Assembly (NCBI RefSeq): GCF_022447245.1
Contig: NZ_JAKVBC010000002.1
Span: forward strand, 186,001-250,000
Reading direction: 5' to 3'
DNA: 64,000 nucleotides
Source: Kordia sp.
Lineage (GTDB): Bacteria > Bacteroidota > Bacteroidia > Flavobacteriales > Flavobacteriaceae
The translations under genes and the position numbers were made by a program. The notes under the pieces are model-generated. The model did no database searches. It worked only from the letters and a program-made list of their open reading frames with translations, and was not told the DNA's origin. Within the stretch, counting starts at the first letter, position 1; every line of letters begins with the position of its first letter. Of this stretch, positions 35,777-52,916 are shown piece by piece.

Positions 35777-37210
35777 CTAGTTCAATTCCGTTAATGGAAG
35801 CCCAAAATAGAATTCTAATATTTTTAAACGGAAAATGTAATCGTATTTCGTACGTATTACATCTGATTCTGCGGCTTCCAATCGTTGTTTGGATTGACTA
35901 AAATCAAACGAATTCATTACACCTTCATTGAACCGAGCTGTAGAATAATCATGTGCAATTCTCCTAGCTGTCAAGGTTTTTTCTGCAGCTTCATAGGCTT
36001 TTAGTGCTCCTTTTGCATCATTATACGCTTGGTTTACGGTAGCTTCTAAATTATTTTTTGTTTGGTCTAGATTATATTTCGCTCTTTCAATCGCAATCTT
36101 AGAGCGTTTTATGCCATTACTAATTCTAAAACCAGTAAAGATTGGTATATTCAATTGCAAACCAAAAGAATTACCTTTGTTTGCTCTAAATTGATCAAAT
36201 AATGGATCTGATTTCTTCGTTAATGTTACAAGGTTCGGTCCTAGTACTGACTCTCCAGTTCCTTCCACAAAACCAATTTCTCTAAATGGCATTTCTGAGT
36301 TTGGGATGGTCCCTGCAAAAATATCCAAATTATTTGCTCTGGTATTAAAACTATAAAAACCTGTCAATGTCGGATATCTTTGTCCTCTTGCGAGTTTCAA
36401 ATCATATTCAGCAATTTCTATATTTGTCTCGGAGATTTTTACATCATTTCGAACTTCTAACGATTTTTCAAAAATTTGTTTTGGTGAGTTATTCATGATC
36501 GTTGTCTTAGGAATTGCGTAATTTCCTTCCTCGATATCAAAAGTATCATAATCTGTAATCAATAAAAGTTGCGCTAAAGATATTTTAGAAATACGCAAGG
36601 TATTTTCAGCATTTACAATTTGCTGTTCTTGTGTCGCTATATTTGCTTCAATTTCTGAAATTTCTCCTTGAGCCAACACACCTTCATCAACTAACTCTTG
36701 GGTACGTTTTAATTCTTTTTTTGTCACTTCAATTTGCAACCTCAATACCTTTAAAGATTCTTTGTTGAACAATATTTGCAAAAAACTTTGTACTACTTGC
36801 AACGAAGTATTGTCTTTCATATCATCTAACTGATACTGATTGGCCAGTAAAGTTAAATTTGCCCTATGAAGTCTATTCACATTTTGCAAACCATCAAAAA
36901 GAGTTACATTCATGCTTAACCCAGCTGATGTATTTTGTGTCGTTTGATTTTGTAACACTCCTGTAGTTACATTTGTGTTTAAACCAATGTTCCAAGAATG
37001 TGATGTCGAAGCATTTAATGTTGGTAAAAATCCTCCGATAGCCTCTTTTTTGTCAATTTCAGAACTTTCTTTATCCAGTTGTGCTTGTTTGATAGCGATA
37101 TTATTTTCTAAAGCATAGTCAACACATTCTTTTAATGTCCATTTTTTTTGGGCATGCATTGTAGTAATTGTTCCTGTAATAAGCAGGATAATGATATAAA
37201 CTTTTTTCAT
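35777..37210 (-). CDS. TolC-family outer-membrane efflux protein
   Basis: 477 residues with a signal peptide ending near MHAQ. The two OEP repeats have the typical start WTLKECVDYALENNIAIKQA and a second copy around FEKSLEVRNDVKISETNIE. Coiled-coil helices and barrel strands are evident. It is the last gene of the ATPase-permease-permease-adaptor-TolC operon. It forms the outer-membrane exit duct of a tripartite pump. Confidence 0.93.
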   Translation of the reverse strand: MKKVYIIILLITGTITTMHAQKKWTLKECVDYALENNIAIKQAQLDKESSEIDKKEAIGGFLPTLNASTSHSWNIGLNTNVTTGVLQNQTTQNTSAGLSMNVTLFDGLQNVNRLHRANLTLLANQYQLDDMKDNTSLQVVQSFLQILFNKESLKVLRLQIEVTKKELKRTQELVDEGVLAQGEISEIEANIATQEQQIVNAENTLRISKISLAQLLLITDYDTFDIEEGNYAIPKTTIMNNSPKQIFEKSLEVRNDVKISETNIEIAEYDLKLARGQRYPTLTGFYSFNTRANNLDIFAGTIPNSEMPFREIGFVEGTGESVLGPNLVTLTKKSDPLFDQFRANKGNSFGLQLNIPIFTGFRISNGIKRSKIAIERAKYNLDQTKNNLEATVNQAYNDAKGALKAYEAAEKTLTARRIAHDYSTARFNEGVMNSFDFSQSKQRLEAAESDVIRTKYDYIFRLKILEFYFGLPLTELN

Positions 37211-48741: not shown

Positions 48742-50853
48742 TTAAAAATCAAAATACCAATTAAAAATATCTGTTCTAATTCCAAAATTAAACCAAGTGG
48801 TATTTTCTTTAAAATCGACTAAGGTATTTGCATCAGGATTGAAGCTTCTGTAAGTAATATTTGCAAAGATTTTTAAGTTGGTTTTTGGATTTACAATATA
48901 TCCAACATTCAAATCACCAATAAGCACATTGGCTTTATTCCCTTGTAATAATTCAATACCTGTATCTCCTATTCTATTATCGTTATCAATAAAAATATTA
49001 CCTCCATAACTCGCATTGTCTATCGCTGGATCAAAGTCTAAACCACGTTGCCCATAGATCAGTTTTGCACTCCCATACCAACGATTGTAGTTGTAACGTG
49101 CCACTCCTACTACTTCGCGGAAATTTGCGCCCCATAAATGTGCTAAAGATTGATTGTTATGTCCATAATTTGTTGCCACTTCATTATGTGAATACGTGTA
49201 CGGACGTACTTGGTTGTATTCAAATTGTAAGAATAAATTATCTACTTTGAATGCATTATAATATTTTGCTCCTAGTTGAAATCCAAATTTGTTTTTCCAG
49301 CTTTGATTGCCAGCTTTGATATCGTTTAATGAAAATTCGTCCAAGATAAATTGCCCGTAGAAATTTACATTGTCATTCCATTTATATTTTGAACTCAATC
49401 CAACTAAAGCATTTCCAGCACGTGATCCAGTGGAAAATTCTATTGCACGGTAGAAAATGATTGGATTTACATAGTTGACATCAAATCCACGATTGTTATC
49501 ATTTTTCCAAATTACCGATTCAAAGAAACCAATGTTTAATTTTTTTGACACATTCCAACTTAAATAATGATTAGCAATATATTTTGTTAAGAAAGCACCA
49601 TCTTCATTTACTTCAGGTCTTACATCACGTAACCACATCCAAGTGTTGGTATATTTTATTTTCCAGAAAGAGGTGTTTAGTTTTAAATAAGGATATGGAC
49701 TCACTGCATCACTTACAAATAACGAACGATATCCGTCTCCAATAAAGTTTCTACCGTGTCCAAATTGCATATTGAAAGTTTTGCTAGGCGAATACGAAAT
49801 ATATCCTTCTGCAACAGGATAATCATAAGCATCTGTTTTGAATTGTTTGGCAATTCCACGACCTGGAATGATTGCTGGATTTCCTCCTGCTGGTCGAATA
49901 CTTTCTGCGTATCTATTTACATAATCAGCAAAACGTCCTTGACTTTCAAATACTGTTGCTGAAAAGTTAAATCCTTTTCCTAAACCTCCTTGCACTTGCA
50001 ATCCACGGGTATTATTATAGGTATAATCAACTTTACCACCTGTGTTTTTACCAAGTTGCAAATCCAAAATAGGATCCAATACAAACCAGTAGTTTTTTCC
50101 TTTTACCGTAACTAAATGCTCATTCCACAATTTACGTCCAACCCATGAAGAGACTTCTTTTTTAAGCTTACTTTGTTGCGCATTGAAATCATAATAGTTA
50201 GAAACTGTGTTATATAAATAAGGTTTTGAAGCGGTATGACTGTTTGTTCCTACCAAATTGATTTGGCGATCAAAATACGCATACATATCATGCGAAAACG
50301 GAATGTTTAAGTTACTCGCATACAATTCATCTTTATAAGGAACCAATTCATCATTTACTGAATCAAATTCAGTTTTTGCAGTCGACTCAAGTTCGTTTTC
50401 TTTTTTTTCAAGTGTTTTGGGTTTTTCTATAGCATCCAAACTTCCGAGTGGAATTTCAACTTTCATGGTAAATTGAACATAAGCTGGCTTTCCACTATAG
50501 GTAGCAGGTTGTATTGTTGGCAACAAGCCAAAAACGCGTTTTATTTCTGTTTTTAACTCTTCATAAACAGCATCTACATACAATACTTTAAACTTCCCTT
50601 CTTTTGTTACTTCAAACAAAACCACCAATTCACCAATATAATTTTCTTTGCTAATAATTTCTGGCTCTCTGAAGTTTGAATTCACAAATGTTCTTAACGT
50701 AGTGTTGAAACAATTTTCAAGATCTGCAATGTCTACATTTTTACATTCTGTAAATACAGGATACTTTTCATAATCATCATTAGAAGTTTGTGCTAATGTG
50801 AATTGAAATGCTAAAAATATGAGTAGATATAGGGACGCTTTGAGTCGCTTCAT
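48742..50853 (-). CDS. RemB-like gliding motility protein, TonB-CTD-like N-terminus and barrel
   Basis: 703 residues with a signal peptide ending near TLAQ. Residues about 30-140 resemble a TonB C-terminal domain (YPVFTECKNVDIADLENCFN; LYVDAVYEELKTEIKRVFGL; YVQFTMKVEIP). The remaining part is a large beta-barrel (about 180-703) with many Asn and Tyr strands. This layout matches RemB of Flavobacterium gliding (partly related to capsule-assembly Wzi proteins). I am moderately sure of RemB and more sure of an outer-membrane protein. Confidence 0.65.
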   Translation of the reverse strand: MKRLKASLYLLIFLAFQFTLAQTSNDDYEKYPVFTECKNVDIADLENCFNTTLRTFVNSNFREPEIISKENYIGELVVLFEVTKEGKFKVLYVDAVYEELKTEIKRVFGLLPTIQPATYSGKPAYVQFTMKVEIPLGSLDAIEKPKTLEKKENELESTAKTEFDSVNDELVPYKDELYASNLNIPFSHDMYAYFDRQINLVGTNSHTASKPYLYNTVSNYYDFNAQQSKLKKEVSSWVGRKLWNEHLVTVKGKNYWFVLDPILDLQLGKNTGGKVDYTYNNTRGLQVQGGLGKGFNFSATVFESQGRFADYVNRYAESIRPAGGNPAIIPGRGIAKQFKTDAYDYPVAEGYISYSPSKTFNMQFGHGRNFIGDGYRSLFVSDAVSPYPYLKLNTSFWKIKYTNTWMWLRDVRPEVNEDGAFLTKYIANHYLSWNVSKKLNIGFFESVIWKNDNNRGFDVNYVNPIIFYRAIEFSTGSRAGNALVGLSSKYKWNDNVNFYGQFILDEFSLNDIKAGNQSWKNKFGFQLGAKYYNAFKVDNLFLQFEYNQVRPYTYSHNEVATNYGHNNQSLAHLWGANFREVVGVARYNYNRWYGSAKLIYGQRGLDFDPAIDNASYGGNIFIDNDNRIGDTGIELLQGNKANVLIGDLNVGYIVNPKTNLKIFANITYRSFNPDANTLVDFKENTTWFNFGIRTDIFNWYFDF

Positions 50854-51101
50854 GTTTGAGGATTTATGAATGCGAAAGATACTATATTTTCACAAAAATC
50901 GATTCATTCCTCCGTTTTATGATGACAGATTTTTAAAAAGTATGCTCATTTTTATCACTAACAAAAATTTTTGAGGTGTTTTTTTCGTTATTTTTAAATT
51001 AAGAATATGAAAAATTGGTACTATTTATCTTAAAAAAGCGAATATATACCGATAAAAGACATTAATTCAGCTTAACAAAAGCTATATAAATTACTTTTTC
51101 G

Positions 51102-51109
51102 TACTTTTG
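51102..51109 (+). promoter_or_regulatory. -7 promoter element (TACTTTTG) of a putative small RNA
   Basis: It matches TAnnTTTG on the plus strand, five bases before the 5' arm of the closing stem at 51114, so a start site at about 51114-51117 fits. No TTG is evident at the -33 position. Confidence 0.5.
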
Positions 51110-51175
51110 TATCATACTTTCTGATTAAATGACCTTTGTAAGTCTTGGTAACATTTACAAAAGGCTTTAAGTTGA

Positions 51176-51209
51176 CATTTTTCATAATAATCGGTTTTAA
51201 TGTTAATGT
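51176..51209. repeat. 34-bp repeat, copy in the putative small RNA
   Basis: It differs from the tonB-leader copy (52083-52116) at one base. Similarity continues weakly a few bases to the left (AGTTG-A-CATTTTT against AGTTGCATTTTT). It covers the complement of the tonB start codon. Confidence 0.9.
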
Positions 51210-51237
51210 AATGATATGTCACAGAAAGTATACCTAA

Positions 51238-51269
51238 AAAACCGAGTGAATAACTCGGTTTTCCTTTTT
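51238..51269. terminator. Bidirectional intrinsic terminator
   Basis: AAAACCGAGT (51238-51247) pairs with ACTCGGTTTT (51253-51262). The plus strand continues CCTTTTTTT, and the minus strand also ends in a T-run. It can stop both the small RNA and the tonB gene that ends at 51292. Confidence 0.85.
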
Positions 51270-51291
51270 TTAATACACTATGTATTTTTTA

Positions 51292-52092
51292 TTAATTTAC
51301 TCTAAAAACAATAGGTAGTGTATACTTTACTTTTACGTTTTTATTTCTTTGTTTCCCTGGCTCCATTTTTGGAAGCAATTTAATTACACGTTCTGCTTCT
51401 TTTTTTAGTTTTGGATGTGGAGCACGTGATTGAATTCCTGTAACATTTCCATTTTCGTCAATTACAAATAATACATTGATTCGTTTTATGCCTTCATCTA
51501 ATCCTAATTCATTAGCCAAGTCTGCATCAAATTTTCGTTGGATAAGTTTGTCTATTTTTTCAGACATACACTTTTTTCTTTTTGCTTTACTCTTGAATTT
51601 TTCACATCCAGGGTAAATTGGCGCATCTTCAATAAAAGCGAAAGGAACTTCTTCAGGAATTTCAACTGGATCTTCTACTTCAACAGTACTTACATCTATT
51701 AATGAAGTCACCTCTTTAGGCTCTACTGTTGTTTTCAATACAGTTTCCTTAAGATCTTTGTGATCGTTTTCCACTTCTTTAATCTTGTCAATAATAAGCT
51801 CTGTTTGCACAACTGGTTCTGGCTTCAATTGTTTTACCACAACCACTTCTTCTTGGAAGACTGGCACATACGTCATATCATCTTCTAGCACATCTTCAAC
51901 TTCTGCTACTTTTGGAGCAGCATCAACTGTTTTTACTTGAAATATTGTGTAGACAATAAATAAACTCAGCATGAGGCTTACTGAGAATCGCAGTAAAGAG
52001 TTTTTTTCTCCTTTTAAGTTGTTCTTTTTTGCAAGGTGACTTTCGCGTACACCATTTGCATTCACATCTTTGTTGTGAGTTGCATTTTTCAT
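51292..52092 (-). CDS. TonB-family energy transducer (paralogue 1)
   Basis: 266 residues from ATG 52092 (MKNATHNKDVNANGVRESHL). A membrane helix (about 38-52) is followed by an acidic periplasmic linker (about 60-150) and the TonB C-terminal domain (about 165-266; IYPGCEKFKSKAKRKKCMSE with two Cys; INVLFVIDENGNVTGIQSRA; NVKVKYTLPIVFRVN). It spans the periplasm to energise TonB-dependent receptors. It is downstream of a closely related paralogue and has its own leader, which matches the small RNA. Confidence 0.9.
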   Translation of the reverse strand: MKNATHNKDVNANGVRESHLAKKNNLKGEKNSLLRFSVSLMLSLFIVYTIFQVKTVDAAPKVAEVEDVLEDDMTYVPVFQEEVVVVKQLKPEPVVQTELIIDKIKEVENDHKDLKETVLKTTVEPKEVTSLIDVSTVEVEDPVEIPEEVPFAFIEDAPIYPGCEKFKSKAKRKKCMSEKIDKLIQRKFDADLANELGLDEGIKRINVLFVIDENGNVTGIQSRAPHPKLKKEAERVIKLLPKMEPGKQRNKNVKVKYTLPIVFRVN

Positions 52093-52116
52093 ATTAATCG
52101 GTTTTAATGTTAATGT
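52083..52116. repeat. 34-bp repeat, copy across the tonB start codon
   Basis: On the minus strand it reads ACATTAACATTAAAACCGAT and continues TAATATGAAAAATG, covering -24 to +10 of the tonB coding start. The other copy lies in the putative small RNA (51176-51209). Confidence 0.9.
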
Positions 52117-52199: not shown

Positions 52200-52916
52200 C
52201 TATTGTACTTTGAAAACGATTGGCAACGTATAGTTTACACCTACAGGCTTACCTCTTTGCTTTCCAGGTTTCATCTTTGGAAGACTCTTAATTACTTTTT
52301 CAGCTTCTTTAGCTAATCTTGGATGCGGCGCTCTTGAACGTACATCTGTAATATTTCCTGATCTGTCAATTTTAAATACAACAAAGATTTTTTGAACTCC
52401 TTCTAAATCTAAGTCAGAAGCTAATTCGGTGTTGAATTTTTTGTTTACGTGCTTTTGTACTTTTTCAGACATACATTTTTTACGCTCTGCCTTACTTTTA
52501 TACTTTTCACAACCTGGAAAGATTGGTGCATCTTCAATAACCGAGAATGGTACATCTTCGATCACCTCTTCTTCTTCAACAACCTCTACATCTTCTACTT
52601 CTTCGATTACTTCATCTTCTGTAGTTTCTGTAGACTCAATTACCGTTTCTTCAACTTCTTCTTCATCTTCTACAACTTCAATAATTTCTGGAGCTGGGTG
52701 CGGTGGTGGTGGTGGCGGTTGTTGTAATTGCTCGGTGATGATCATTTCCTCTTCATCACTCTCAATTAGGTCAACTGTTTCTTCTTTTACAACTTCATCG
52801 TAAGCTGTCCACTCCATACCTTGCCAGATAAGGAATGTTACTAATGCTAAACCTAAAGCTAGATAAAATAGACTATTTTTTCTTAAGTCAGCATCTGGAT
52901 TCTTCTTTGCTTCCAT
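52200..52916 (-). CDS. TonB-family energy transducer (paralogue 2)
   Basis: 238 residues. One membrane helix (about 15-32), a Pro run (QQPPPPPPHPAPE, about 65-77), a long Glu/Val-rich linker and a C-terminal domain (about 135-238) with the same FPGCEKYKSKAERKKC motif and NYTLPIVFKVQ end as paralogue 1. A diverged pair with different linkers suggests different partners or regulation. Confidence 0.92.
   Translation of the reverse strand: MEAKKNPDADLRKNSLFYLALGLALVTFLIWQGMEWTAYDEVVKEETVDLIESDEEEMIITEQLQQPPPPPPHPAPEIIEVVEDEEEVEETVIESTETTEDEVIEEVEDVEVVEEEEVIEDVPFSVIEDAPIFPGCEKYKSKAERKKCMSEKVQKHVNKKFNTELASDLDLEGVQKIFVVFKIDRSGNITDVRSRAPHPRLAKEAEKVIKSLPKMKPGKQRGKPVGVNYTLPIVFKVQ

Follow-up and report, generated by a model that had tools for sequence, protein, structure and literature searches.

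The TonB-ExbBD complex powers the uptake of polysaccharides, iron, and vitamins in Bacteroidota, and DNA that is complementary to the translation start of a neighboring tonB gene raises the question of whether a small RNA acts on this machinery and how such an RNA arose. The stretch of Kordia DNA analyzed here (64,000 nucleotides, called the window) carries two tonB paralogues on its minus strand, in the order tonB2 (52200 to 52916), tonB1 (51292 to 52092), a gap of 438 bases, and a gene whose 703-residue product has no Pfam match. Within the gap is the locus in question, a sharply bounded conserved block (51102 to 51271, plus strand) that is present in all 11 Kordia genomes searched. Agreement with the majority base, scored in 20-column bins across these genomes, is 0.93 to 1.00 throughout the block, compared with 0.71 to 0.76 in the three bins to its left and 0.10 to 0.55 in the four bins to its right. 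Conservation rises sharply at TTTTTCGTACTTTTG on the left edge and drops past the terminator T run on the right. The block and its surroundings contain the following features.

51102-51109, plus strand: −7 box, TACTTTTG; the TTTTTCG in front of it is also conserved
51112-51271, plus strand: small RNA gene, with a transcript predicted to start near 51114 and end at the T run (conservation in 11 of 11 Kordia genomes, fold, covariance model R2)
51114-51123 with 51222-51231, plus strand: perfect 10-bp closing stem, ATACTTTCTG with CAGAAAGTAT (read directly)
51125-51170, plus strand: 5′ inner hairpin (fold and Kordia consensus fold)
51173-51221, plus strand: 3′ inner stem-loop with the antisense seed in its loop (fold and Kordia consensus fold)
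51176-51209, plus strand: antisense seed against the tonB1 and exbD translation starts (complementarity)
51238-51262, plus strand: terminator hairpin, followed by a T run, with the element ending at 51271 (stem pairs invariant in 11 genomes)
51072-51185, minus strand: 37-codon remnant of a tonB 5′ coding region (alignment to TonB1 residues 1 to 36)
51186-51235, minus strand: promoter-like box and leader of the tonB type, in relic form (arranged as at the tonB2-tonB1 junction in four related genomes)
51292-52092, minus strand: tonB1, the proposed target, with a TonB_C domain (PF03544, 39.2 bits)
52083-52116, minus strand: target site covering the tonB1 leader, ATG, and first codons (duplex of −43.4 kcal/mol)
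52200-52916, minus strand: tonB2, the upstream paralogue, with a weakly similar leader (PF03544, 41.1 bits)

The preliminary description had proposed a plus-strand small RNA with a −7 box, a 10-bp stem, inner hairpins, and a terminator, and this outline is present and conserved in 11 of 11 Kordia genomes. The sequence TACTTTTG, which we take to be a −7 box of the TAnnTTTG type, occurs in 10 of the 11, with TATTTTTG in its place in the other. No clear −33 box was seen ahead of it, and a scan for sigma-70-type promoters, which does not cover the TAnnTTTG type, found none on the plus strand. The terminator at 51238 to 51262 is the sole terminator-like site that a scan of 50850 to 51320 found. The further proposal that this terminator is shared is plausible, since the element to 51271 may also end tonB1 from the opposite side, with the qualification that the terminator-like site found is on the plus strand only. 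Within the predicted transcript, the 5′ inner hairpin occupies the position of a hairpin that covaries in the first tonB1 codons of other genera, and the seed is the most open part of the plus-strand fold (mean unpaired probability of 0.69 for 51193 to 51206). A 32-nt core of the seed is invariant in all 11 genomes.

The complementarity that first drew attention to the locus holds throughout the genus. Positions 51176 to 51209 match 52083 to 52116, which is antisense to the tonB1 start, at 33 of 34 bases, and strong pairing with the tonB1 start is predicted in all 11 Kordia genomes (−36.7 to −49.6 kcal/mol). A 17-nt core, TTAACATTAAAACCGAT, is exact at 10 of 11 Kordia tonB1 starts, and in the remaining genome (G009) a 3-nt insertion leaves the pairing intact. 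The 32-nt seed core does not vary, whereas the core is separated from the ATG at Kordia tonB1 by 3, 4, or 5 bases. No relative that retains the RNA without the complementarity was found among the 11 Kordia genomes, all of which keep both.

The proposed target tonB thus pairs as described, but a second start, that of an orphan exbD, pairs as well. The three exact core matches in the 5.24-Mb genome of this strain are the RNA locus, tonB1, and this exbD (ExbD domain, 69.2 bits). Seed duplexes were ranked among 349 predicted gene starts, drawn from the window plus 400 kb of stretches of which 6 of 20 hold loci already met. The strongest were at tonB1 (−43.4 kcal/mol), exbD (−39.2 kcal/mol), and a gene on contig C24 (−29.2 kcal/mol); for 100 dinucleotide-shuffled seeds, the best of the 349 starts averaged −22.3 kcal/mol, with an extreme of −29.0 kcal/mol. 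The fourth-ranked start (−22.7 kcal/mol) and everything below it are at the level of shuffled seeds, and the tonB2 duplex (−21.6 kcal/mol) is also inside their range. With up to 2 mismatches allowed, the genome has 12 matches to the core and 7 to the reversed pattern; only the closest core matches therefore stand out. Across the genus, the orphan exbD start pairs at −32.3 to −44.8 kcal/mol and has the core within 1 mismatch in 10 of 10 genomes; the gene was not found in Kordia genome G010. Each Kordia genome has 4 to 7 matches to PF02472, and an exact-core search of the genus found the core at none of the other exbD paralogues. One exact core match (G008:C5:334565) is away from any gene start.

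Several weaker matches can be recorded separately. The C24 gene (L232:15385-15828, G000:C24:45384 onward) encodes 147 residues, was labeled outer-membrane-like, and has no Pfam match. In its leader, a TACTTTTG box is closely followed by 16 of the 17 core bases, and as the third-best duplex it is a possible extra target that we do not claim, its −29.2 kcal/mol being the extreme of the shuffled range (−29.0 kcal/mol). A gene labeled TolC-like (window positions 35777 to 37210, minus strand) has 15 of 17 core bases located 17 bases ahead of its ATG, with a duplex (−22.7 kcal/mol) inside the shuffled range. Three Kordia loci (L162, L045, and L136) contain short peptide genes with near-core leaders upstream of ATGAAAAA and a GG motif, presumably a bacteriocin-like leader. 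Unrelated genes of the order can also have generic AT-rich leaders.

The origin of the locus can be traced on its minus strand. Similarity to tonB runs well beyond 34 bases and takes in the promoter-like box, the leader, and 36 codons. The minus strand of the locus and the tonB2-tonB1 junctions have a common layout of terminator-like hairpin, GGTAT promoter-like box, leader, and ATG, and the complement of the promoter-leader relic (51186 to 51235) constitutes the seed and the 3′ arm of the closing stem. The relic reading frame aligns without gaps to TonB1 residues 1 to 36 of G007 and G009. When the G007 TonB1 was compared with 4 of the 11 relic frames, scores were 61 to 76 against shuffled means of 20 to 22 (0 of 1,000 shuffles as high in each case), and 41 to 56 against about 19 to 20 when the first four residues were left out. 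Compared with the TonB1 of the strain itself (G000), the relic frames scored 40 to 53, reached by at most 3 of 1,000 shuffles. A profile search placed three of four relic frames above all 1,000 shuffles and the fourth below one. Scores against TonB N termini of two other genera were not significant (z of −0.1 to 1.9 at full length), and the relic is therefore of the Kordia TonB1 type. The sequence shows common descent of the RNA locus and the tonB 5′ end.

Comparable copies were sought in relatives. No RNA-like unit follows tonB1 in two Winogradskyella genomes or in G054 and G050, where the gap is 106 to 119 bases, and a 96-base leader query of six such genomes found no copy beyond tonB and, in G054, exbD. 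Among 79 loci, a second leader copy within about 5 kb of tonB was found only in Kordia aestuariivivens (L049); this was a weak test, in which the script took the first ATG everywhere, an incorrect upstream one in the second Kordia locus (L050), and found none in L120.

Relatives do have the same fold in another place, opposite the start of tonB itself. Two covariance models, R1 from the 11 Kordia RNAs and R2 from 12 non-Kordia tonB antisense sequences, were used to scan 397 genomes of the family, with the 8 best first-look candidates per genome scored, which makes counts of absence uncertain. R1 matched the three Kordia genomes drawn and at least 11 others, and all 11 of these matches were full length on the antisense strand of the tonB1 start. 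R2 matched at least 127 of the 397 genomes and at least 88 of 237 genera, including 10 of its 12 training genomes. Although built without Kordia, R2 matches 51105 to 51234 (39.8 bits, E value of 1.9e-5 in the genome), and in 3 of 3 Kordia genomes drawn it matched only the RNA locus at an E value of ≤0.001 among the 8 candidates scored. A model from other genera alone is enough to place the locus in the tonB antisense fold. R1 also gives weak matches at Kordia tonB1 in two of three genomes (35.3 and 29.7 bits), so the cis copy there appears decayed, not gone.

These relatives are consistent in layout. Folded singly, 15 of 16 non-Kordia sequences form the closing stem on the antisense strand, joining codons around K-H-D to the tonB promoter region; the lowest-energy antisense fold of the other (G376) lacks it. 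In a sequence-only alignment of 36 non-Kordia sequences (A6, without L296, the second locus of the G315 element), 35 span the start of a frame that is 150 codons or longer and one spans that of a frame of 81. A TAnnTTTG box is in place on 26 of the 36 antisense strands, where the boxes overlap common codons, and our hairpin search found a terminator-like hairpin on 28. A further 20 stretches contained 22 R2 matches, two of them also in A6, and 21 are at the starts of tonB-like frames, recognized by sequence and not by domain search. The exception (G256:C34, L320), which is not at tonB, was set aside as a probable chance match. Plain DNA similarity outside Kordia, judged on the best 8 candidates per genome, returned only tonB or exbD starts, other AT-rich starts, and short or chance matches.

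Some of these loci are unusual. G133 and G134 (L318 and L319) have three tandem tonB-like genes, the middle one of which (METKKNP...) has the same leader as tonB1, so that one antisense RNA could reach two tonB paralogues; the tonB1 frame of L318 is just 81 codons long. In G112 and G183 (L335 and L336), the tonB1 coding hairpin is kept, the leader and promoter arm look replaced, and the antisense RNA may have been lost.

Covariation in these relatives bears on whether the fold is maintained and on which strand. Counts were taken from A6 and exclude alignments A3 (17 sequences, Kordia RNA misaligned) and A5 (fitted to the model). The A6 consensus fold has two-sided changes in 14 of 28 pairs, partly inside coding sequence, for a total of 70 two-sided cells compared with 18.2 ± 3.4 after shuffling (0 of 500 as high), counts that are not probabilities because related sequences are not independent. 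Pairing in A6 is 95.4% and falls to 28 to 46% when the partners are slid. In the coding-region hairpin, L/E (CTC/GAG), P/G (CCC/GGG), V/D (GTC/GAC), and R/A (CGC/GCG), as read from the alignment, covary as reverse-complement codons, which could be explained by either strand.

A structure in the tonB mRNA could account for much of this, if the conserved fold were a cis-regulatory element of the sense strand over the leader and first codons and the Kordia locus were a fragment of tonB. The hairpin is within the coding region, single sense sequences fold better than their shuffles (mean z of −3.71), and tonB and exbD have a leader in common in genera where no separate RNA locus was found, all of which speaks for this explanation. 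We nevertheless consider it unlikely, as the strands differ in the expected direction for an antisense RNA. The consensus of the 36 sequences is −12.9 kcal/mol with 28 pairs (14 with double changes) for the antisense strand and −7.3 kcal/mol with 17 pairs (6 with double changes) for the sense strand; for 12 sequences, the values are −22.0 kcal/mol with 32 pairs and −16.4 kcal/mol with 24 pairs. Wobble pairs are kept on the antisense strand, with 49 G-U cells (16 of 28 pairs) against 7 A-C cells (6 of 28 pairs). Single antisense sequences have a mean z of −4.22 and are lower than their sense counterparts in 22 of 36 cases. The 3′ arm of the fold is the tonB promoter region and is probably outside the mRNA, and the noncoding Kordia locus still keeps the plus-strand −7 box, fold, and terminator.

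The predicted pairing of an antisense RNA with exbD also extends to other genera. Of 9 non-Kordia genomes, 7 have an orphan exbD leader that pairs well with their own tonB antisense, at −35.3 to −52.5 kcal/mol; in the other two (G427 and G050), the orphan exbD start has no match (−25.5 and −24.7 kcal/mol). With equal 54-nt seeds and Kordia added, own pairs averaged −29.5 kcal/mol and cross-lineage pairs −21.9 kcal/mol, a difference that 1 of 20,000 permutations matched, including when each sister pair was represented by a single genome. The own-lineage pair was the strongest in 2 of 10 cases and among the three strongest in 9 of 10. Gene conversion between the tonB and exbD starts, or a promoter ancestry common to both, could contribute to the own-pair signal. 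Two orphan exbD genes (G099:C33:404174-404593 and G100:C8:134439-134852) contain 1 and 2 in-frame stops, respectively, with the leader match kept.

The explanation that we regard as probable is that a structured antisense RNA whose ancestral place was opposite the tonB start has become, by duplication, a gene of its own in Kordia and binds the tonB1 and exbD starts in trans. The gene outline, the complementarity to both targets, the descent from tonB, and the compensatory changes in relatives can all be read from the DNA. In this mechanism, positions 51102 to 51271 (plus strand) would encode a structured antisense RNA of about 155 nt, in which a loop kept open by the closing stem and 5′ hairpin is complementary to two translation starts, the leader and start codon of the adjoining convergent tonB1 and those of the orphan exbD. 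Pairing in trans at both starts would most likely block ribosome entry. Initiation in this phylum occurs without reliance on Shine-Dalgarno pairing, according to PMC9723704, and AU-rich sequence is common around its translation starts, according to PMC11697453, so a duplex at the start should block initiation. By analogy with the FopS RNAs of Bacteroides, which repress SusC translation at the start codon, as shown on susC in vitro (PMC11697453), repression is the likeliest outcome. It would lower the energy-transducing TonB-ExbD machinery together, and if so, one RNA setting tonB and exbD would amount to a posttranscriptional switch for the energy supply of TonB-dependent transporters.

The same RNA and targets could instead operate by activation, with pairing that stabilizes the message or opens its leader. 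The direction of an effect is not readable from sequence, which leaves room for this alternative, but the predicted pairing spans the leader, start codon, and first codons, where FopS represses (PMC11697453), and activation is accordingly a poor prospect in our judgment.

The preferred antisense reading also requires that the plus strand be the functional one in Kordia. The plus strand folds at −36.7 kcal/mol (z of −3.2; 0 of 200 shuffles as good) and the minus strand at −38.1 kcal/mol (z of −4.7), and with both strands this stable, the fold by itself does not distinguish between them. Every closing-stem cell in the 11 genomes is paired, and 4 of its 10 pairs vary, always to plus-strand G-U. 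The Kordia consensus fold of 50 pairs contains 6 pairs with single changes, all to plus-strand G-U, and 4 broken cells; compensatory two-sided changes were not found within the 11 Kordia RNAs (0 of 50 pairs), which have wobble changes only. The plus-strand fold leaves 546 of 550 cells paired when read on the plus strand and 516 on the minus, with 22 of these 30 extra cells due to two invariant G-U pairs chosen by the plus-strand prediction itself. The minus strand's own consensus fold pairs 530 of 539 cells (−33.7 kcal/mol, compared with −35.4 kcal/mol for the plus). Wobble and cell counts within Kordia are thus a weak strand signal, and the plus strand is favored mainly by the −7 box at the block edge, the only terminator-like site found, and the relatives.

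Transcription of the opposite strand has been considered as well. The minus strand retains a GGTATACTTTC box and leader and folds as well as the plus, as would be expected if a tonB-type promoter still drove a leader mimic, a decoy that sequesters a regulator acting on the tonB and exbD leaders. We rate this as very improbable: the plus-strand −7 box marks the end of the conserved block, the scan of 50850 to 51320 gave no terminator-like site on the minus strand, and the consensus fold of the relatives favors the antisense strand. No better placed is the idea of a decaying tonB pseudogene fragment or small protein gene whose match is a functionless leftover, which has in its favor a minus-strand frame homologous to TonB1 and against it conservation far above the near flanks, blind to codon position, and a seed invariant in 11 genomes. 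The relic frame has a frameshift in G007, its 15 changed cells are 4 synonymous and 11 nonsynonymous, and its codon positions vary alike. It is apparently no longer under coding constraint, and a small minus-strand protein gene was rejected on these grounds.

For the antisense RNA, the comparison with relatives points to a sequence of events. Its ancestor would be an antisense RNA on the opposite strand of the tonB start, as appears in many other Flavobacteriaceae. In Kordia, a piece of tonB would have been duplicated downstream of tonB1, where the copy ceased to code for protein and retained the antisense RNA, while the version in cis inside tonB1 probably decayed. The preliminary description had suggested a leader duplication turned into a regulator. 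The duplicated tonB origin bears this out, with the correction that the piece is the tonB 5′ end including 36 codons. As for duplication being the source of the regulator, the antisense RNA is probably older, because the same fold is antisense to tonB in many other genera. If correct, the locus is a worked example of a trans-acting small RNA that arose from an antisense RNA nested in its target gene and was then copied out. We are evenly divided over a broader proposal, a previously undescribed Flavobacteriaceae family of antisense RNAs opposite the tonB start in about one-third of sampled genomes, which shapes the TonB sequence by way of its own base pairing, acts on tonB in cis and exbD in trans, and was freed in Kordia. 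Were it true, a cis-to-trans change of an antisense RNA would have been caught in genomes.

Known RNA families were compared with the locus. A 6S-Flavo RNA, whose outline includes a long closing stem as at the Kordia locus, had been suggested for a covariance check, and this identity is rejected: RF01685 (85-bit threshold) has no match at an E value of ≤10 in 51000 to 51400, and the 6S-Flavo RNA of this genome is elsewhere (G000:C3:96807-96934, minus strand, 97.5 bits). No family in Rfam release 15 matched the window at gathering scores, and five loci from relatives yielded just five subthreshold matches, all to families known from animals or from other bacteria. Antisense RNAs that are encoded in cis across a translation start, with their own promoter and terminator, are a general kind. 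The tonB form is likewise antisense to a gene start, with its own putative promoter and terminator, and differs in having a defined fold, compensatory changes in coding sequence, occurrence in many genera, and a trans copy in Kordia.

The closest working parallel is FopS (RF04319; PMC11697453). Both RNAs have a seed complementary to the start region of TonB-system mRNAs, those of SusC transporters for FopS. Both also combine TTTTTCAT and an AT-rich leader complement with a terminator, and the aligned part looks alike (22.7 bits, E value of 0.29). FopS RNAs are described there as about 65 to 70 nt long, with 12 to 15 copies per genome and a seed in the single-stranded 5′ end. The Kordia RNA would be about 155 nt long, has one locus found, and presents its seed in an internal loop behind the closing stem, about 60 nt from the predicted 5′ end. 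R1 and R2 have one match each in G000 among the 8 candidates scored, and the other exact core matches are gene starts. FopS targets susC in that account, whereas the predicted targets here are tonB and exbD. If this is correct, the Kordia RNA would exert control a level higher than FopS, whose targets are individual transporters. Membership in FopS was rejected on score (22.7 bits against a gathering score of 56 bits), architecture, and copy number. RRM_1 proteins were found in 0 of 11 Kordia genomes, and the FopS partner RbpB, which has an RRM domain, was by that measure not found in Kordia. GibS of Bacteroides also binds translation starts and shares one seed (R1, in the GibS nomenclature) with FopS; its description in the same source gives it two seeds and other targets, which set it apart from the Kordia RNA. 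No description of a tonB or exbD antisense RNA of Flavobacteriaceae was found in open-licence literature, and the earlier remark that no such arrangement was known needs tempering, since FopS makes the working principle of pairing with TonB-system translation starts known (PMC11697453). By its predicted start pairing the locus would act like FopS and is not a member of that family, and we take it to be a new RNA family whose working type is known and whose nested origin is unusual.
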